From positions 62,001 to 126,000 of the forward strand of contig JASBVF010000005.1 in NCBI GenBank assembly GCA_030147525.1: a stretch of 64,000 nucleotides of DNA. Direction: 5' to 3'. Every line of letters starts with the position of its first letter. Position 1 is the stretch's first letter. The stretch comes from Bacteroidota bacterium (lineage in GTDB: Bacteria; Bacteroidota; Bacteroidia; Chitinophagales; Saprospiraceae). The notes under the pieces were generated by a model that saw only the letters and a list, made by a program, of their open reading frames with translations, did not search any database and was not told where the DNA came from. The position numbers and the translations under genes were made by a program. Positions 1,958 to 11,504 of this stretch are shown here, piece by piece.

Positions 1958-3925
1958 TTACGCAGTTTCCATCTCCGCATTCACTTTATTTCCCACAAAT
2001 TCATCGTGTAAAATATGCAGCCCGAGCAGGTGGTTGAGCAGGGCGTCCTTGCGAACCAGTGACACCGGGTTTGTGTCGTTGCGGTAGTCCGTCAGGAATT
2101 GCTTCAGCCGTTTTGGGTCCAGGATGCCTGCGTTTTTCACCATTTCCTCGTTGAGGTAGCGGTCTTTCAGTTCCTGGAGGGCTTTCCGCTTCGTGTCCGA
2201 AGTGTGGGCGGGCGGCGCCATGAAGGCGAATTTCTCGCGCTTGTACAGCACTTCCGGCAGGATCTGCTTCATTGCTTCGCGGAGCACCCATTTTTCCGTG
2301 TTGCCGCGGATACGCACATGAGGCGGAATGTTGCGGGCGACGGCAGCCACGTGGTGGTCGAGGAAGGCCGGGCGGCTCTCCATCGAGTTGGCCATGTCCA
2401 CGCGGTCGCCGCCCCAGTTGAGTATCTGGCATTCGAGCATGGTTTTGATCCAGGTGTACTGGGCCACGTCGAGTGCGTGGCGGCCCTTGAGCTGGCTCCG
2501 GTCGAAGGAATCGGCGATGGCTTCGATGGGGTCGTAGTTTTTCAGCTCGGCCTGCAGGTCGTCGGTCAGCAGGGGCCGGGCGATGGCCAGCGTCTGAATC
2601 CACGACTGAATCCACGACGGGGTGAAGCCACAGGCGGCATCGAGCGCGGGGTGTGCAACTTGCGTTTCCGCAAGAATGGCGCCTTTGAAAATCTCATTCG
2701 ACTTGTCCATTTTTTCAAAATGCGCACTCGCGTCGCCTTCCGTTCCGTGCAAAAACATATCGCGCTTGAAGGCTGGGTAGCCGCCGAACAGTTCGTCGGA
2801 ACCTTCGCCAGTCACCACCACGCGGTAATCGCACTCGTTCACGCGCTTGCTCATGCACCATTTGGCTACGCCAAGCGTGTTGTAAAATGTGCGCTCGGCG
2901 TGGCGCATGGTTTTGATGTAATTTTCACCGTAAAGTTCATCCGCTGCAAGCCGAATCTCCTCCTGGTCGGCGCCGGTTTTTTCTGCCATTTCGCGGGCGA
3001 TCGCCGATTCGTCGTAGGCATCGTGGTCAAAACTGATCGTGAAAGCCTTCACCGGCGACTGCTGCATGGACGAAGCCAGCCCCAGCATCGAGCAACTGTC
3101 GATGCCGCCGGAAAGGTAGCAGCCCACGGGCACGTCGGCTTCCAACCGGAGCGCCACGGCCTCGGAAAGCGACTCCTTCACCGCATCGATGTGATGCTGG
3201 TCGGAAAGCGAGTTGTCGCGCTCCGCGTCTTCGGGGAAGTCCATGTCCCAGTACTTGTGTTGCTTCACGTCGAAGCCGGTTTTCGTTTTTTCGATGATCA
3301 AAAAATGGCCGGGCAGCACGGCGTGAATGCCCTCGAAAGCGCTCGTTCCCGGCACCATCGTTTGCATGAGTTGGTGCAGGATGCCTTCTTTTGAAAAACG
3401 GGCCTCCACTTCCGGGTGAGCCAGCAGCGACTTGATCTCGGAGCCGTACACCACCGCGTTTTTACCGATGTGATAAAAAATGGGTTTGATCCCGAAACGG
3501 TCACGCGCCAGGATCAGCCGTTTTTTGTTGTTGTCAAACAGCGCAAAAGCAAACTCCCCGCGCAGATGCTCGAGAAAATCGAGACCATGCTTGCGGTAGA
3601 GCGGCAGCGCAATTTCGCTGTCGGATTTTGTTTTAAACTGAAAACCCTCCAGCCGCAGGCCTGTCCGGATGCGTTTGTAATCATAAAATTCACCGTTCAC
3701 CGTCAAGGCCAGCGAGCCATCCGTGCTGAACAGCGGCTGGTCGCCGGTGTTCAGGTCGATGATGGACAGGCGGGCATGGCCCATGGCCAGGCCGTTGTCG
3801 CGGTCGAGGTGATAGCCGTAGCCGTCGGGGCCTCGGTGGTAAAGGGTTTTTGTCATGTTGGTCAGGGTAATGGCCGCATCGCTATGCAGCACCTGACGGC
3901 TCCAGTAGCCGGTAATTCCACACAT
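1958..3925 (-). CDS. asnB: Asparagine synthetase-like amidotransferase (AsnB family)
   Basis: 655 residues. I chose ATG 3925 because it gives the N-terminus MCGITGYW, in which Cys2 is the glutaminase nucleophile exposed after Met removal; the GTG farther upstream would bury it. N-terminal Ntn glutaminase (about 1-200, with RGPDGYG, GEFYD, RDRFGIKP) supplies ammonia. The C-terminal synthetase domain carries the ATP PP-loop YLSGGIDSC and GEGSDELFGGY. Known reaction of the family: ATP-dependent amidation of a carboxylate, normally aspartate; AsnO-type members amidate a peptide in the NAGGN osmolyte pathway. Here it is the last gene of a minus-strand run with a carbamoyltransferase and an M20 carbamoylase, 65 bases after the latter, so a dedicated substrate other than aspartate is plausible. 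The symbol reflects the family, not a proven substrate. Confidence 0.88.
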   Translation of the reverse strand: MCGITGYWSRQVLHSDAAITLTNMTKTLYHRGPDGYGYHLDRDNGLAMGHARLSIIDLNTGDQPLFSTDGSLALTVNGEFYDYKRIRTGLRLEGFQFKTKSDSEIALPLYRKHGLDFLEHLRGEFAFALFDNNKKRLILARDRFGIKPIFYHIGKNAVVYGSEIKSLLAHPEVEARFSKEGILHQLMQTMVPGTSAFEGIHAVLPGHFLIIEKTKTGFDVKQHKYWDMDFPEDAERDNSLSDQHHIDAVKESLSEAVALRLEADVPVGCYLSGGIDSCSMLGLASSMQQSPVKAFTISFDHDAYDESAIAREMAEKTGADQEEIRLAADELYGENYIKTMRHAERTFYNTLGVAKWCMSKRVNECDYRVVVTGEGSDELFGGYPAFKRDMFLHGTEGDASAHFEKMDKSNEIFKGAILAETQVAHPALDAACGFTPSWIQSWIQTLAIARPLLTDDLQAELKNYDPIEAIADSFDRSQLKGRHALDVAQYTWIKTMLECQILNWGGDRVDMANSMESRPAFLDHHVAAVARNIPPHVRIRGNTEKWVLREAMKQILPEVLYKREKFAFMAPPAHTSDTKRKALQELKDRYLNEEMVKNAGILDPKRLKQFLTDYRNDTNPVSLVRKDALLNHLLGLHILHDEFVGNKVNAEMETA

Positions 3926-3959
3926 AATTTTTATTGTTTTTTTAAAAAATATTTCAAAT

Positions 3960-4007
3960 AACTCTCTCTCTCTCACTCCTCTCACTTCTCTCACTTCTCT
4001 CTCTCTG
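3960..4007. repeat. CT/GA-rich microsatellite over a stop codon
   Basis: On the plus strand the bases are almost only C, T and A, with runs of CT and repeats of TCTCACTTC. On the minus strand this is a GAAGTGAGA-type repeat containing the last codons (EREK) and stop of the transglutaminase/M20 gene and the first half of the gap before the asparagine synthetase-like gene. Slippage here would alter the 3' end of the upstream gene. Confidence 0.7.
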
Positions 4008-6888
4008 CCAACACCCGTTCTGCAATGTTGCAGGTATCGTGCAGCGCCCCGGAGATAAATGGCTGAACGCCGTTCCTCCAGGCTTCCGGGATGCGTTTTT
4101 TCACAAAATCGAACAGGTTGAAATTTTCAATATCGTCCAGTTGGAAAAAGTGGCGCACCACCTTCAGTTGCAGGAGCGTGCCCCTGAGCAGGTCGATCTC
4201 AAGCTGGGCTTCGTTGGGGTTGTGGCTGCCTCCGTAGCTGCGTTCCAGTTGGAGCACCTGCCCGGATTCCGACAAATGCTGCGGCGGCAACTGCTGTTCG
4301 ATGCTTGAAGTGATTTTCAGACCGTGCAGTTCGGCAGCTTCCCGGACCACCTGCCGCACATTTTGTAAAAAATTATCCGTAGCAGCCTGGCTTGCCGTCC
4401 GCAGGTCGATGCTCAGGCGGGTCCGGCTGTACGGGCTGATGAAACTGATCGGTTCGATGTTGCAGACGGGAATGCCTTCGCCGCCTGCCTTCACCGGCCC
4501 CGACAGTTTGTTGATGAGCAGGGCCTGGAGCGTGAGTTGCACGTATTGCCTGACCCGGTCGCTCACGTTTTTGTTTTTCAGCGCAAGGGTCAGGGCGGCG
4601 CTTTCCGGGATTACGTTGCGGTTGGCGCACGGGAAAAGCTCAATGTCTCCGACGAGCGGCACGAGTTCCGAGCCTTCGTTGCGGTTCAGTTCCTCGATCA
4701 GGTCGAGAAAGTACCTGGCAAGCCGTGCTGCGCCGACGGCCGGGTCACGGCGGTCTTCGAGCAGGGTGGCGCCGGCGTGATTTTTTTCACCAAAAAGATG
4801 GCAGCGCAGGCCAAAGTCCACCTCTTCGGAAAACCGGTATTCGGAAGTTCCTTCGATGATGCCCGTCGTGATGCGGATGTCTTCGCCGGCCTCAAAGGCC
4901 AGGTCACGCAGGCGGCGCACGATTTCCAGGGCTGCCTGCTCCGATCGGATGCCTTCGATGAAAAAGTCTTCCTGATGGATGCCCATCACCGTATCCACGA
5001 TGGCGAGCGGGGCTTCTTTCCGGTCGAGGATAGGCCCCTGCTCGATGTGTCGTTCATACGTGTGAGGAGTGAAAAAGTCGGTTGGTTCGTGGCAGGCAGC
5101 CAGCAGCGCTTCCGGCGAACCGGCGTTTGCCAGATCATTGGCGAGGCTGATGTCGCCGCCTGCCTGCGCTTGCCCGAGAAACTTCAGCATTTCGACCAGC
5201 TTGTCCCGGAATATTTCCCCGTCGCCGTTGGTCATCCGGTGAATGTCGGCCACGCTGTTGCGGCCGGAAACGGCTGCACTTCCGGGCATGGATACGCCTT
5301 CGCCGGTGAAGGTCATTTCCTCACCGATAAAGGAGGTGATCAGCAGGGCTGGCGAGTTGTTTTTTTCAAAAATTTCAACGTTAAAATACTCCTTCAGGTC
5401 GGTCAGTACGTTGGCAATCTCAATACCCGACAACACGCCCAGACGGCCGTCGTATTTTCCGGCGCCAGTGACGGTGTCGAGATGGGAGCAGATGCAGATG
5501 GAGTTTTTCAGTTGTTTTTTAAAACTGGTTTGCCGACCGTTCTCATTTCCCGGGCCGGGCGGCAAAAGCATCCCGTGCAGGTTGCCCACCTTGTCGATGC
5601 AGACGGTCAGTCCCGCACGGTTCATCTGGCGGATGGCTTCGAGCGTTGTTTTAAAAAAACGGTCGTTCAGCGCACGGGCATCGATTTCTCCCTGTTCGTC
5701 TTCGCTGGTTTCGGCCAGTTGTTCGATACGCTGGCGCAGGCGCATGGCAATGCCGGGCACTTTTTTCAAATGGCCGTTCTCCGTGAGTATTTGCTGAAAT
5801 GTGATGCCGTTTTGCAGCCAGGCTTTCAGTTGGCGGATGGCCCGGTAGCAGGCGATCGTGTTTTCAACTTCTGCCAGCGGCTCCAGCAATTTCTCCGACC
5901 AGTCGGCGTCCTCGCCGGCCACTTCGTAGATATGGAGCGAATCGACCAAGGCTTCCAGCTTTTCACGTATCTGAATCACCTCGCCGTGCAGGTGCCGGCG
6001 GGCTTCCAGCATTTCAGCGAACGGCTCCCGGAGGATGTCGCCCTTGCCGGTCAGTTCCCGCTGGCGGCGGTCGTGATCGGAGTCGGGCACAAGGTTGTTG
6101 GCATAAGTCCAGGTGTCAGGGTCGCCGATGGAGCCTTCCGGGGCGCCGGTCAAACGGCGGATAACGGCGGACTCGTCCGTGCTGCTGCCATTGAGGGATG
6201 CCCTGATGTTTTGAAGGGTTTCCTGCTGGAGTTGCGTCAGGTATTTTTCATCCAAACGCAAATGACCGGTGGGTGGCGCTGTGAAAATGAGGGCCTCTTC
6301 GTCGTGAAGTTTTTCCCGGAGTTCTTCGACCGGGTACAGCGAATTGGGGTTGACGGTGGGGTCGATGACGAGCTCGACCGGCTCGTTGGCCGTTTCATCC
6401 CAGAAAGTGAGGGTGATGAAAATGTGGCTGCGGGCCTGTTTGAACTGCACTTCCTTGCTGTGGTGCAGGACAAACTGGCCGGCGTGGATTTCCGAATCGT
6501 TGAATTGTACATGCACGCACTTTTTTTCCAGCATTTTCAAAAGTGCCTTCTGGTGAAAATCCTTCGGATGGTAAAGCGGATTTTCAACTACCAGCGCATG
6601 GGGGCGGTTGCGGTAGTTTTTTTCCTGCAACATCGCTTCCGACATGTCCCTTTCCATGATCATCCCCCGCTTCAGGGCATAGGCCGGAATGCCCAATTTC
6701 AGCAGTTTTCGCAAAATAATACTGCTTTTTTTACCACAGCCGTACTCCGCAATGGTGTAGGGAAGCGGCAGGTAGGTGAGGATGAGGAAGAGGATTTTTG
6801 TCTGTTCTTCGAGCAAGGGCAGTCCGGTAGCTCCGTCGAAGCGGATACTCAGGTCGAGCGTTTCCTTTTTCGTTTTTAAATCAATCAT
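3991..6888 (-). CDS. Transglutaminase-like / M20 carbamoylase fusion
   Basis: 965 residues, about twice a normal M20 carbamoylase. The C-terminal half (about 405-960) is an AllC/HyuC-type M20 metallohydrolase: SHLDTV (His about 469), GKYDGRLGV, the GEE pair, ERHIEQGP, HAGAT and the final SGALHDT histidine are all present, so the two-metal site looks intact. Known members cleave N-carbamoyl groups from amino acids, ureidopropionate or allantoate. The N-terminal ~240 residues look like a transglutaminase-like fold with Cys51 in GCGKKSS, His155 in RSHIFITL and Asp176 in VIDPT; this part is inference from motif order. A helical linker (about 240-400) joins them. It starts 17 bases after the carbamoyltransferase. 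The fusion suggests coupled amide/ureide cleavage; the substrate is unknown. Confidence 0.75.
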   Translation of the reverse strand: MIDLKTKKETLDLSIRFDGATGLPLLEEQTKILFLILTYLPLPYTIAEYGCGKKSSIILRKLLKLGIPAYALKRGMIMERDMSEAMLQEKNYRNRPHALVVENPLYHPKDFHQKALLKMLEKKCVHVQFNDSEIHAGQFVLHHSKEVQFKQARSHIFITLTFWDETANEPVELVIDPTVNPNSLYPVEELREKLHDEEALIFTAPPTGHLRLDEKYLTQLQQETLQNIRASLNGSSTDESAVIRRLTGAPEGSIGDPDTWTYANNLVPDSDHDRRQRELTGKGDILREPFAEMLEARRHLHGEVIQIREKLEALVDSLHIYEVAGEDADWSEKLLEPLAEVENTIACYRAIRQLKAWLQNGITFQQILTENGHLKKVPGIAMRLRQRIEQLAETSEDEQGEIDARALNDRFFKTTLEAIRQMNRAGLTVCIDKVGNLHGMLLPPGPGNENGRQTSFKKQLKNSICICSHLDTVTGAGKYDGRLGVLSGIEIANVLTDLKEYFNVEIFEKNNSPALLITSFIGEEMTFTGEGVSMPGSAAVSGRNSVADIHRMTNGDGEIFRDKLVEMLKFLGQAQAGGDISLANDLANAGSPEALLAACHEPTDFFTPHTYERHIEQGPILDRKEAPLAIVDTVMGIHQEDFFIEGIRSEQAALEIVRRLRDLAFEAGEDIRITTGIIEGTSEYRFSEEVDFGLRCHLFGEKNHAGATLLEDRRDPAVGAARLARYFLDLIEELNRNEGSELVPLVGDIELFPCANRNVIPESAALTLALKNKNVSDRVRQYVQLTLQALLINKLSGPVKAGGEGIPVCNIEPISFISPYSRTRLSIDLRTASQAATDNFLQNVRQVVREAAELHGLKITSSIEQQLPPQHLSESGQVLQLERSYGGSHNPNEAQLEIDLLRGTLLQLKVVRHFFQLDDIENFNLFDFVKKRIPEAWRNGVQPFISGALHDTCNIAERVLAEREK

Positions 6889-6905
6889 TCACATACGGTT
6901 CATTT

Positions 6906-8000
6906 TCAATTACTTAGCGGCACGTCCTTTTTGGGCAAACGGTCAAAACGGTTCAGTACCGAGATGAACAGCGCCTGCCGGATGAAGACCGCCCCGTGGG
7001 CCTGGGTGAAATACAGGTTGTGATGGGTGCCGTCCAGCGCCGGGTCGAGTTCGTCGAGGCGGGCGAGGGGGTGCAGCACCACGGCGTCTTCCTTGAGGTT
7101 GCTTCCGGCATCCAGTTTGAAACGGGAATCCAGCGTTTTGTAGCTGTCGCCAAGGAAGGCGATGGAGTTCATGTAAATGACGTCCATGTCGGAGAGCACC
7201 ACGTTGATGTCGTTGGTGATCACAAAATCCAGGTCCGATTTTTCCAGGGTCTCCTGCAGTTCAGGGCCGAGGGGATCAGCCATTTCAGAGATGATGGAAA
7301 TCTTGCGGATGCCGGGTTTGAACAACAGCGACATGCGCAGGAAGCTGTTCACGGCCCGCATGCTGCCCGGCGTTCCGAGGATGCCGAGGTGGATACGGTT
7401 TTCAGGTTTCACCTTGTCTTTTTTCAGTTCGGGTTTCCATTTTAAAATGGCAAACCAGTCGGCCAGCGCCTGCGTCGGGTGTTCGCCGCTCCCGTTGCCG
7501 GCATTGATGAGGGGCAGGCGGAGGTTTTTCATGATTTTCTGCACGGCGTCCGTTTCCGTGTGACGCATGACGACGAGGTCGCCGTAGGCATTGAACATTT
7601 CACCAATGTCTGCCAGGGATTCGCCCTTGGCGACGCCGGTCTGGCGGGCATCGGGGATGGTGATGATCTTGCCGTTGAGCCTGAGCACGGCACTTTCGAA
7701 GGAAAGCCTGGTGCGGGTACTCGCTTCGAAAAATGCCGTGATGACGATTTTGCCGTTGAGCGGATGGCTTTCGGCAATTTCCGTGGCTTCGAGCAGGGCT
7801 GCGAGTTTGCAGATTTCCAGCACCAGTTCTTTGTCGAACTGGTTGACCGACAGAATGGACTGGCCGACCAGTTTTTTTAAAATTTTCAGGTTGACCTTGT
7901 CTTTGACGATCAGTTGCCCGGGGTCGGGATAAAGCCCTCCGGAGTCCAGCGGATTTTCAACCAGCAGGTTTTTGCTTTCGGAGAATTGTGGATCTACCAT
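6906..8000 (-). CDS. Aspartate/ornithine carbamoyltransferase family, altered acceptor site
   Basis: 364 residues, about 55 longer than catalytic ATCase, mostly from an N-terminal extension. The carbamoyl-phosphate site is complete: STRTR (94-98), Lys125 in KGES, Arg146 in MRHT, His174 in HPTQAL, Arg215 in SMRAV. The HPLARLDE loop (310-317) is ATCase-like. Where E. coli ATCase has YMTRVQ, with Arg229 and Gln231 gripping aspartate, this protein has YMNSIA (276-281), so the aspartate contacts are missing. It should carbamoylate an amine other than aspartate; it need not be pyrB. Its ATG overlaps the stop of the 40-aa membrane peptide (ATGGTAG), which implies translational coupling, and the M20 fusion follows 17 bases downstream. 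Confidence 0.85.
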   Translation of the reverse strand: MVDPQFSESKNLLVENPLDSGGLYPDPGQLIVKDKVNLKILKKLVGQSILSVNQFDKELVLEICKLAALLEATEIAESHPLNGKIVITAFFEASTRTRLSFESAVLRLNGKIITIPDARQTGVAKGESLADIGEMFNAYGDLVVMRHTETDAVQKIMKNLRLPLINAGNGSGEHPTQALADWFAILKWKPELKKDKVKPENRIHLGILGTPGSMRAVNSFLRMSLLFKPGIRKISIISEMADPLGPELQETLEKSDLDFVITNDINVVLSDMDVIYMNSIAFLGDSYKTLDSRFKLDAGSNLKEDAVVLHPLARLDELDPALDGTHHNLYFTQAHGAVFIRQALFISVLNRFDRLPKKDVPLSN

Positions 8001-8116
8001 AACTTTTTTGTTTTCATATCCTGTATCAGCATGACTATCAATGAGATAGCTCCGACGCTCATGAGCGCCAGTGCTGCCAGGATGAGTATTTCAAAAAAAG
8101 ATTTCGAGAAAAACAT
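7994..8116 (-). CDS. 40-aa single-pass membrane peptide (symporter accessory type)
   Basis: Short reading frame starting at ATG 8116 and ending with TAG at 7994. It encodes 40 residues: a short MFFSKSFFE head, a hydrophobic helix of about 22 residues (ILILAALALMSVGA onward) and a basic tail ending KTKKLW. The stop overlaps the carbamoyltransferase ATG in ATGGTAG, and the start lies 22 bases after the symporter stop, so it fits the operon exactly. Small one-helix peptides are known next to SSS symporters as small accessory proteins; I infer the same role. No homology could be tested, but size, hydrophobicity and junctions all argue that it is real. Confidence 0.7.
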   Translation of the reverse strand: MFFSKSFFEILILAALALMSVGAISLIVMLIQDMKTKKLW

Positions 8117-8137
8117 TTTTGAGGATTTGAAAAAGAT

Positions 8138-9571
8138 TCAAGTTTGAGCAACGCTTTCGTCCATTTTTTTCCAGTCAAAATTGTCAGGCGCCAGCTTGGC
8201 GAACGTCACCGTAACGATGATGGAAACCGTCGCCCCGATGAGCGAGGCTGTGTACCAGCCCATCTGAAAATAGGCGATCAGCCCGATGAGCGTTCCGGAA
8301 ACCATCGCCCAGAGTGCGCCTTTCGCACTGGCTGATTTCCAGAAAAGCCCGGTGGCAATGGGGTAAATCGTACTCGCTACCATCGGGCCTGCGAAAAACA
8401 GCACGGTCGCCAGCGTACCGATACGCGGCAGGCAGACAACCCACGTTAAAATGCCCAGTCCGACGATGACAAAGGCAGACGCCCGTCGCATCCACTTTTC
8501 ACTGGCGCCGGGTTTGATCATTTTTTTTAAAATATCCTCCACGATCAAGTCGGAGGTAGCGGCCAGCAAACTGTCGATACTGGAGGCCAGCGAGCAGAAA
8601 AAGACGATGAAAACGATCACCGCACCTGCTTTCCCCAGGATATTACCGGCCATGAGCGGCCCCACCATGTCGGGACTGGTGATGTTAATGCCGAGAGAGC
8701 CGCTGGTCAGGGCGATAAATCCGGCGGCAATGGGCACCGGCAGCCAGAAAAAACCGGCCAGGGTGTAGGCTCGCTGCCCAATTCCCTTTCGCATGGCAAA
8801 AGCCCGGCTCCACCAAACATTGCTATGAAAAACTTCACCGATGCCGAAGAGCAGGTTGTTGAAAATGGCCATGATCGATGCTGGTAACAATACGTTCAGC
8901 AGCATGGGTTTTTCAGTCCGCAGGTTGGTGTAGACCTGCTCCAGGTCAATCGACCAGATCACGGCAACTCCAACCACCACTATTCCGATCATGATGATGA
9001 GCGACTGGATAAAATCAGTACCGATCACAGCGTATAAACCACCGAACAGCGTGTAAAGCACGCAGACAAGCAGGATAGCCGTCATGCCAATTTCATAAGG
9101 AATACCCGCAAGCGCATTCATCAAAATACCGCCTGCCATGCCCATGCTGATGAGCCAGGTGAAACCATAAAAAATGGAAATGCCCAGAAAAACGAGCCAG
9201 GCCGCCTTCCCGTACCGGAGCCGGATGAAGTCGCCGCTGGTGTAGCCTTTCGGCATCAAATCTTTAATTCTTCGGGCAAGCGGGGCAAAAAGAAACAGGC
9301 CGAATGCCGCTGTTGAATAGGCGACCATTCCCCAGATACCCAGTTGCAGCGCAAACTGCGGGGCCAGCATGGTCGTGTTCGAAGTGACCCAGGTGGCCAT
9401 GGCTGTGGCGGTTCCGAATGCCAGTCCGACGTTACGGCCGGCGAGCATGAAGCCGTCCATGCTTTTGGCTTTGCGGCCCCAGTAGATTCCGAGTAAAACC
9501 CAGATAATACCCAAGAGGATGAGCAATATCCATCCTGTTGTTGTAGAGAGTATTTCCGATTGGTGTTCCAT
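8138..9571 (-). CDS. Sodium:solute symporter (SSS family)
   Basis: 477 residues with about 13 hydrophobic segments spread over the whole length. The N-terminal GRKAKSMDGFMLAGRNVG and MATWVTSNTTM segments and the YTSGDFIRLRYG loop are typical of the SSS family and are most like the urea/ureide-related branch. It would import a small solute with sodium across the inner membrane. Upstream by 41 bases is an FN3-like anchored protein; downstream are the 40-aa peptide and the carbamoyltransferase/M20/AsnB enzymes, so the imported solute is probably a ureide, carbamoyl or amide compound. Substrate is inference; family is firm. Confidence 0.87.
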   Translation of the reverse strand: MEHQSEILSTTTGWILLILLGIIWVLLGIYWGRKAKSMDGFMLAGRNVGLAFGTATAMATWVTSNTTMLAPQFALQLGIWGMVAYSTAAFGLFLFAPLARRIKDLMPKGYTSGDFIRLRYGKAAWLVFLGISIFYGFTWLISMGMAGGILMNALAGIPYEIGMTAILLVCVLYTLFGGLYAVIGTDFIQSLIIMIGIVVVGVAVIWSIDLEQVYTNLRTEKPMLLNVLLPASIMAIFNNLLFGIGEVFHSNVWWSRAFAMRKGIGQRAYTLAGFFWLPVPIAAGFIALTSGSLGINITSPDMVGPLMAGNILGKAGAVIVFIVFFCSLASSIDSLLAATSDLIVEDILKKMIKPGASEKWMRRASAFVIVGLGILTWVVCLPRIGTLATVLFFAGPMVASTIYPIATGLFWKSASAKGALWAMVSGTLIGLIAYFQMGWYTASLIGATVSIIVTVTFAKLAPDNFDWKKMDESVAQT

Positions 9572-9612
9572 TCCAGAAAAATTGTTTTCAGACAGGCAAA
9601 GCGACGGCCTGT

Positions 9613-10071
9613 TTAAGCATTTACCCTTCTGACGCCCTGGATGACGATGCCCACCGTAAAAGCAAATACGAGGGCGCCCAGACCGAACAGGGTCAGGGCT
9701 AATTCGAGGGAATGGTGCCGCACTTTTACAACAACAGTCGGAGACCAGTCGCTGAATTCATTTTCTGATACCGATCTCACCCGGTGGTACAAATCACCGT
9801 CGGGCAAGCCGGAAAGAAACGTAGCGTAGTCTTCCCCCAGGTAAATAACTTTCGGATTGATAAAATCTTTATTATCAGCCTGTTGCAATTCGAATTGTGC
9901 ATTTGCCATGGGCACTGCATCCGCGGATAAAGACCAACCCAACTTGATATAGCCGGAATTGGTCTGCTCTTCCACAGCATTTTCGAAAACAGGACTGGCG
10001 AGATTGATGGCGTGGGAAGTGTATCCACAAAAAACCATCAGACAACTCGCAATCGTAGTTCTCAGGTTCAT
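9613..10071 (-). CDS. Signal-peptide FN3-like protein with C-terminal TM helix
   Basis: 152 residues: a signal peptide (MNLRTTIASCLMVFCGYTSHA), a fibronectin III-like beta domain (about 25-115, with YIKLGWSLS, FELQQADNKDF, YHRVRSVSENEFSDWSP), then a hydrophobic helix (about 122-145) and a short basic end. Topology would put the FN3 domain outside the inner membrane. It is 12 bases after rpsU and 41 bases before the symporter, so it is likely a partner or scaffold of that transporter. No enzymatic motif is visible. The fold is inferred from the pattern of aromatic and hydrophobic strands. Confidence 0.72.
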   Translation of the reverse strand: MNLRTTIASCLMVFCGYTSHAINLASPVFENAVEEQTNSGYIKLGWSLSADAVPMANAQFELQQADNKDFINPKVIYLGEDYATFLSGLPDGDLYHRVRSVSENEFSDWSPTVVVKVRHHSLELALTLFGLGALVFAFTVGIVIQGVRRVNA

Positions 10072-10083
10072 TGCATTCTGCCT

Positions 10084-10275
10084 TTATACCTCTTCCATAC
10101 GTTTCTGTTCGATGTACTCAGCTTTCAGCACTTCTTTTCTCCGAACGACCGAAGGCTTCGTGAAATGCTTGCGGCGGCGCAGTTCGTCCCGGAGGCCAAC
10201 ATCACGGTGTTTTCTGCGGTAACGGCGAAGAGCTTTCTCAATGGATTCGTTGTTTTTTACATTTACAATAAGCAT
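10084..10275 (-). CDS. rpsU: 30S ribosomal protein bS21
   Basis: 63 residues, highly basic, with the bS21 pattern ESIEKALRRYRRKH, LRDELRRRKHFTKPS and a lysine/glutamate-rich end. bS21 joins the small subunit late and, in Bacteroidota, is linked to anti-Shine-Dalgarno sequestration. It is the first gene of the minus-strand run leading to the FN3 protein (12-base gap) and the symporter/carbamoyltransferase genes, an unusual operon partner set. The bases upstream contain a short GTAGC/GCTAC hairpin in the leader; no clear promoter was recognised. Confidence 0.95.
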   Translation of the reverse strand: MLIVNVKNNESIEKALRRYRRKHRDVGLRDELRRRKHFTKPSVVRRKEVLKAEYIEQKRMEEV

Positions 10276-10937: not shown

Positions 10938-11504
10938 AAGCCCGTGGGTTGCATTGCAAATAAATAGTGTGTTTCTTCAGAATTGTTCTCCGCTTTCTAC
11001 TCTGCCTCTCGAAAACGAGCAGTTTTGGGAATGGGCGAGAACAATTTCCGGTAATTATTTCTTTGCAAAAGCTGCACTAAGCGCCTTTTCATATTTTCAA
11101 ATTCAGAGGTGTCTTTTCATGATCTTTACCATGGTGACTTTTTGTTTTGTTTTACAAGCCTCTGAAAATCAAGATTCTCTGGTGGTTTCCAAATTGGAAT
11201 CAGCCCATTTTTTTACAGCTGATTTCAACGATTATTTTCATTTAAACCGGGATTTTTAGCTTTTTGAGATATGTATTTTCTTTTTGATAGGTTAAAGGTA
11301 ATACCATATCAAAGTGGCTTCAAAGTCATTTAGATAATGTTTGTTCCGGATAATTGGCTGAAAACGAGCGATTAAATTTGCTTGAAATGTATTTTAAGGA
11401 ACTGATAAACAGTAGGTTGTAATTATTTTTGACTTTTGAAATTTGTTCCGTTATTATTGCAGGGTAAAACCGAATTTTATCATTTTGAAAAATACTTCAC
11501 TCCA

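Follow-up and report, generated by a model that had tools for sequence, protein, structure and literature searches.

What does a run of seven closely spaced genes headed by rpsU do for a bacterium of the family Saprospiraceae (Bacteroidota)? The genes lie in a 64-kb window, by which we mean the whole stretch of DNA analysed (64,000 nucleotides; positions 62001-126000 of contig C11 of genome G000, 7.08 Mb in 59 contigs). A first-pass annotation had read them as an operon that makes, imports or recycles a carbamoylated or amidated solute, perhaps an osmolyte. All seven open reading frames (ORFs) are indeed present on one strand, the minus strand, and the gaps between them, recomputed from the ORF coordinates, are 12, 41, 21, -7, 17 and 65 nucleotides, five as first given and the third 21 instead of 22. 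Five of the genes, encoding a small membrane protein, an SSS-family symporter, a 40-residue membrane peptide, a carbamoyltransferase and an AsnB-like glutamine-dependent amidotransferase, form what we call the core. We tentatively read this core as an operon for the biosynthesis and retention of a neutral N-carbamoyl amino-acid amide.

Do the genes belong together? Orthologues of the carbamoyltransferase (E <=1e-60; those found are 75-80% identical) occur in 9 of 398 family genomes, the own genome counted, and in 6 of 112 genera; the carriers are G000, G036, G497, G693, G727, G760, G806, G845 and G857. A separate search of relatives gave orthologues in 3 of 248. AsnB-like orthologues (E <=1e-150) were found in 8 of 368 family genomes, a sample drawn afresh, and all eight are carriers of the carbamoyltransferase; symporter orthologues (E <=1e-80) were found in 2 of 60 relatives, both of them carriers. 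Conservation of gene order had been proposed as a check, and the core genes keep the order small membrane protein, symporter, 40-residue peptide, carbamoyltransferase, AsnB-like enzyme across all nine loci, within the limits of contigs that end inside the symporter in G806 and inside the AsnB-like gene in G760, while the genes flanking the core vary. Recurrence of this order in nine genomes and six genera exceeds chance, as does a constant overlap of 7 nucleotides between the peptide gene and the carbamoyltransferase gene, and the gene arrangement is real, rare yet conserved, and a probable operon. The search was dense for the one family and thin for its phylum; beyond the phylum it covered scans of genome contigs and viral contigs with the non-core hydrolase, and collections of plasmids and phages. 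In the phylum sample, 24 of 395 genomes match the carbamoyltransferase at E 1e-30 or better, and with the own genome set aside these matches are 24 places in 23 genomes with 28-37% identity.

The carbamoyltransferase would supply the carbamoyl group. Its best NCBIfam models are those of aspartate carbamoyltransferase (ATCase), and both are missed (PRK00856.1, 171.7 against a cut-off of 263; TIGR00670, 171.2 against 236.95), whereas the separate PyrB of the same genome passes both (401.4 and 313.7). The cut-offs for ornithine and N-acetylornithine carbamoyltransferases are missed as well (92.4 against 306, 79.7 against 280.85 and 24.1 against 288), and the genome also encodes an N-acetylornithine-type enzyme (299.7 against a cut-off of 288), the gene of which stands between ORFs that by eye resemble those of an acetylglutamate kinase and an aminotransferase. 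The operon copies were aligned with E. coli PyrB and numbered after it. All nine keep Ser52-Thr-Arg-Thr-Arg56, Lys84, Arg105, His134, Gln137 and Arg167, and in all nine Ser80 is replaced by Gly, Arg229 by Ser and Gln231 by Ala. In 24 comparison sequences from the phylum, among which the Lys84 column is poorly aligned, position 229 is Arg in 22 and His in 2. The operon enzyme thus shares with PyrB the two-domain fold, as judged by profile, the carbamoyl-phosphate residues and Arg167, and differs from it in these three replacements, in scoring below the ATCase cut-offs and in a conserved N-terminal extension of about 45 residues. In PyrB, we take Arg167 to be the anchor of the alpha-carboxylate, and Arg229 and Gln231 to hold the side-chain carboxylate of aspartate. 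We infer that the carbamoyl-phosphate site is intact and the carboxylate anchor kept, and that the side-chain pocket is no longer suited to a second carboxylate; as Arg167 is kept and Arg229 and Gln231 are lost, a side chain without charge, glutamine's or asparagine's for instance, would fit. Judged by its sequence the enzyme is not an ATCase, and the ordinary ATCase against which the first-pass annotation had warned is excluded by the missed cut-offs, the separate PyrB and the loss of Arg229 and Gln231. The nine operon copies form a single clade with a support of 100/100 on a long branch, the position of which among other carbamoyltransferases is unsure because the tree program warns of long branches. 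In a plasmid search with the carbamoyltransferase the best matches listed were PyrB or unannotated proteins, all below 60% identity.

The AsnB-like enzyme would supply the amide. Like asparagine synthetase B it combines a Cys1 glutaminase domain with an SGGxDS synthetase domain, and none of the 8 aligned copies has lost Cys1, the SGGxDS motif or Lys449 (the copy of G760, truncated by its contig, was excluded). Compared with E. coli AsnB (554 residues), the operon protein is about 100 residues longer (655), and the TTIR segment (TTxR motif) of the E. coli enzyme reads NTLG in all eight. The matching Thr, Thr and Arg have a role in aspartate and ATP binding (PMC5775275). From the change of TTxR to NTLG it follows that the enzyme probably forms the amide on a substrate other than aspartate. 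It also stays far below the cut-off of the model for AsnO, the amidotransferase for N-acetylglutaminylglutamine amide (NAGGN) (TIGR03104, 288.6 against 570.1).

Could the two enzymes be nothing more than an ordinary aspartate carbamoyltransferase and asparagine synthetase in duplicate? The best models of the carbamoyltransferase are those of ATCase, and the AsnB-like protein passes TIGR01536, the general model of asparagine synthase, both of which would fit such duplicates. However, the genome's PyrB passes the two ATCase models that the operon enzyme misses, acceptor residues are changed in 9/9 carbamoyltransferases and 8/8 AsnB-like enzymes, and the nine carbamoyltransferases stand together on their long branch. 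We considered an ordinary PyrB and AsnB and rejected them on the missed cut-offs, the separate PyrB and the changed acceptor residues, and this origin is highly improbable. It is a different matter whether the enzymes act on a natural product, a signal molecule or a building block of the cell envelope, for which the symporter would import a precursor. Carbamoyltransferases and AsnB-family enzymes both occur in natural-product pathways, and among the plasmid-borne relatives of the AsnB-like enzyme (the closest are cyanobacterial and from Methylobacterium, 37-40% identity) one from Planktothrix lies among biosynthetic-looking genes. Yet genes for assembly lines, glycosyltransferases or export are missing from the core and do not recur next to it, and the core consists of five genes and is complete alone in several loci. 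We regard this explanation as unlikely, and prefer a free N-carbamoyl amino-acid amide as the product.

The symporter is the part that would retain such a compound. Its nearest solved relatives are the DUR3 urea symporters, with 95.7-97.9 bits over two stretches that match both halves, at about the superfamily level only, and the same scoring gave 71 bits for PanF of E. coli, 43 for SGLT1, 34 for ActP and 21 for PutP. This kinship points towards a urea-like ligand without proving it. A literature search found no paper on the urea-site residues of DUR3, and a plasmid search with the symporter gave only distant SSS matches. In contrast to DUR3 (704-773 residues), the operon symporter has 477 residues and is accompanied by two small membrane partner genes. 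The first encodes the 152-residue membrane protein, which stands immediately before the symporter in 8/8 loci with that side covered and is a probable symporter partner; it has no match in Pfam or NCBIfam, and the FN3 label once given to it is unconfirmed. The second gene encodes 40 residues in 9/9 loci and overlaps the start of the carbamoyltransferase gene by 7 nucleotides in all of them, and its second codon positions change least in 8/8 comparisons. In E. coli, panF and actP are each preceded by a gene for a small membrane protein (yhdT and yjcH), so the 40-residue peptide is most simply seen as a symporter partner and is, by this analogy, a probable small subunit.

The same peptide could be taken for the precursor in a lasso-type ribosomal-peptide cluster, with the Cys/His/Asp domain of the neighbouring hydrolase as the protease and the AsnB-like enzyme as the cyclase. 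Lasso clusters do contain the same three kinds of parts by name. However, the 40-residue product is a conserved hydrophobic membrane segment with the constant overlap just described, and the Cys/His/Asp domain was not found in four carriers. The lasso peptide cyclase model NF033535 is missed by far (187.3 against 525), on which score we rejected the cluster, the least credible of the explanations considered.

Some strains carry in addition a hydrolase with two domains, described by the first-pass annotation as a transglutaminase/M20 fusion. The M20 half of this description holds: from about residue 380 onward the protein matches N-carbamoylases and allantoate amidohydrolases of the M20 family, under the family cut-offs (hydantoinase/carbamoylase model TIGR01879, 112.9 against 204). 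The Zn and substrate residues H469, D480, E523/E524, H614, Q617, H704 and N758 are invariant in 5/5 orthologues. The Arg of SIDLR and the His of SGALHD, placed by eye, are present in the four orthologues long enough to include them; the former was paired by eye with the Arg of AllC, and MAFFT leaves it unaligned. The Zn-ligand motifs and the Gln, His and Asn motifs of AllC and other M20 N-carbamoylases are thus recognisable, and the differences are about 380 extra N-terminal residues, an insert of about 55 residues before the SIDLR strand and a reversed motif order. In 4/5 orthologues, those that reach that far, the last two M20 motifs stand as GGSHNPNE (about 888) before SGALHD (about 946), and in AllC the order is SGAGHD (354), then SHNP (381). 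A segment swap inside the M20 fold is possible; in a test with 200 shuffles the SHNP segment beat all shuffles in 3/8 comparisons and SGALHD, which is short, did so in 0/8, so the case for a swap lies in the motifs. The transglutaminase half found no profile or structural counterpart. Cys51, His155 and Asp176 are invariant in the alignment of 5/5 orthologues and their contexts presumably resemble those of transglutaminase-like enzymes; the support for the label lies in these three residues. A single-sequence structure model of the first 300 residues was unusable (predicted local distance difference test score, pLDDT, 35.8).

The hydrolase occurs in 5/9 carriers, between the carbamoyltransferase and the AsnB-like gene in G000 and G497, convergent beside the AsnB-like gene in G806, and away from the core, on different contigs, in G727 and G760. 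The other 99 relatives searched, among them the carrier G036, did not yield it, and the other 394 phylum genomes searched gave partial M20 matches only, in three. With the own genome excluded, the hydrolase is present in 4/8 carriers and in 0/98 other relatives (Fisher p 1.4e-5, a test that presumes the 98 relatives to be without the operon, as the search of 248 relatives suggests without naming each genome, and that ignores shared descent). A search of viral contigs gave no match, and the hydrolase matches listed for phages (3 records) and plasmids (200 records) cover parts of the M20 region only. One match on a genome contig (L010; 48 residues, 31% identity) was judged spurious. In G760 (L097:9769-10575) the hydrolase gene is on a separate contig, where a gene of the same orientation for a PhyH-family dioxygenase precedes it by 6 nucleotides.

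A DUR3-like transporter and an N-carbamoylase-type hydrolase in five of nine carriers are also what one might expect of nitrogen scavenging, in which the symporter would import a ureido or urea-like compound, the carbamoyltransferase would run in reverse to give carbamoyl phosphate, and the AsnB-like enzyme would store the nitrogen as amide. However, enzymes of the AsnB type consume ATP and glutamine, which scavenging would not need, and in the loci read neither a carbamate kinase nor a urease gene was noticed, although no family search for either was made. Scavenging seems to us rather improbable.

Returning to the synthesis and retention of a doubly capped amino acid, we build on the observed gene order, co-conservation, family membership and altered acceptor sites the following scheme. 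The carbamoyltransferase would carbamoylate the amine of an amino acid, with carbamoyl phosphate as donor, and the AsnB-like enzyme would amidate the remaining carboxylate with glutamine and ATP. The DUR3-like symporter and its two small membrane partners may then recapture or import the ureido compound, and in some strains only the hydrolase may remove both caps, the amide by way of its Cys/His/Asp domain and the carbamoyl group by way of the M20 domain. We infer both the order of the two capping steps and the acceptor. The likeliest use of the product is as a compatible solute, a role in which our confidence is lower than in the chemistry; the comparison is with the NAGGN osmolyte operon, with carbamoyl in place of acetyl. 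In all, the idea of a carbamoyl or amide solute found partial support: enzyme families for carbamoyl transfer, for making amides and for hydrolysing N-carbamoyl groups do come together, and the symporter's kinship to DUR3, its nearest solved relative, suits a ureido ligand, while bS21 and the hydrolase fall outside the core and the transglutaminase and FN3 labels are unproven.

Several observations weigh against the scheme. Nothing links the gene set to salt. The operon is confined to 9/398 family genomes, and the carbamoyltransferase orthologue was found in 0/13 listed congeners. The AsnB-like enzyme exceeds the cut-off of TIGR01536 well (414.5 against 267.1), and loss of TTxR is not specific to it because three further AsnB-like proteins of G000 are also without the motif. 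For the symporter, the NCBIfam search ranked PutP (86) and then PanF (75), both far under cut-off, and matched no urea model, and its likeness to DUR3 stays near the level of the superfamily. The first 300 residues of the hydrolase have no match in Pfam, NCBIfam or the PDB, and the protein was not found in G036, G693, G845 and G857, so that recycling is not general, 4/9 carriers being without it.

The coordinates are collected in Table 1. The labels first given to bS21, the symporter, the carbamoyltransferase and the AsnB-like enzyme were borne out by Pfam domains above cut-off; the start of the last was set at the ATG at 3925, and the upstream GTG at 3994 was not used. As to the seven genes proposed as one set, the five core genes are co-conserved and the other two are not core. 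The bS21 gene is beside the core in 3/8 loci with the upstream side covered (G000, G036 and G497), and there are four copies in G000 (the others on C56, C54 and C13), three in G497 and one in G036; its adjacency in 3/8 loci and the four copies in G000 led us to reject it as a member of the system. Among 20 genomes searched, bS21 genes mostly number one or two per genome. MarR-family genes lie upstream of the core on the same strand in 2 of the 8 loci with that side covered (L086:6334-6873 in G760 and L087:911-1399 in G845). In G036, where the hydrolase was not found, a KamA-type radical SAM gene (L041:10850-12166) follows the AsnB-like gene by 50 nucleotides; the idea of a beta-amino acid acceptor that it raised was set aside, as the score was 130.7 against a KamA family cut-off of 199.2 and the gene was seen at one of the loci read. 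At the locus of G000, the gap between hydrolase and AsnB-like gene (3926-3990) holds a GA-rich repetitive stretch immediately after the hydrolase stop codon, a Uma2-family gene (PF05685; 1232-1903, plus strand) adjoins the downstream end of the operon, and upstream the next ORF of more than 200 residues, at 11436, has plus-strand orientation. Scanning the window for Rfam families and tRNAs gave no matches. A strict Bacteroidota-type promoter pattern is upstream in 1/8 loci and absent at that of G000, and is uninformative.

Table 1. Genes of the operon and the adjoining bS21 gene, in positions of the 64-kb window.
Product	Length (residues)	Position	Strand	Domain evidence	Standing
bS21 (rpsU)	63	10084..10275	-	PF01165 and TIGR00030 above cut-off	Beside core here, not a conserved member
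Small membrane protein	152	9613..10071	-	Hydrophobic C-terminal segment	Core
SSS-family symporter	477	8138..9571	-	PF00474 above cut-off	Core
Membrane peptide	40	7994..8116	-		Core
Carbamoyltransferase	364	6906..8000	-	PF02729 and PF00185 above cut-off	Core
Two-domain hydrolase	965	3991..6888	-	N-terminal Cys/His/Asp domain and C-terminal N-carbamoylase-type M20 domain	Accessory
AsnB-like glutamine-dependent amidotransferase	655	1958..3925	-	PF00733 and PF13537 above cut-off	Core

A known compound corresponds to the predicted chemistry. N-carbamoyl-glutamine amide is a reported osmolyte, listed as such in reviews (PMC1224877, PMC7824335). The two enzymes combined would yield this compound or a close analogue; it is the product of the first two proposed steps if glutamine is the acceptor. 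In the open-access papers searched, as far as titles and the openings of abstracts go, no genes are named for it and the operon is not described. That the locus is the first gene set for a compatible solute of this type, joining a carbamoyltransferase and an amidotransferase, both dedicated to it and the former using a new acceptor, to a three-part symporter for ureido solutes and in some strains to one protein that removes both caps, is a doubtful proposition. If true, a new acceptor would be known for carbamoyltransferases, along with a way to neutral, doubly capped amino acids that does without a peptide-bond enzyme, and the five-gene core is small enough for expression in E. coli K-12.

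The closest known system in its logic is the NAGGN operon. In Pseudomonas aeruginosa it consists of an AsnB-type amidotransferase, a GNAT-family protein and an aminopeptidase with a divergent MarR repressor (PMC8070244); the members compared here are asnO, ngg and the aminopeptidase gene (PA3459-PA3461) with the MarR regulator PA3458. The present operon differs in that a carbamoyltransferase replaces the GNAT/ligase protein and an M20 protein of the N-carbamoylase type replaces the glutamyl aminopeptidase, that a symporter with two small partners is added, and that the AsnB-like enzyme scores far below the NAGGN amidotransferase cut-off. The two systems share an AsnB-type amidotransferase, an amine-capping enzyme, a metallo-hydrolase within the set or close to it and, in some loci, an upstream MarR-family gene, and with these the logic of a neutral, doubly capped solute.

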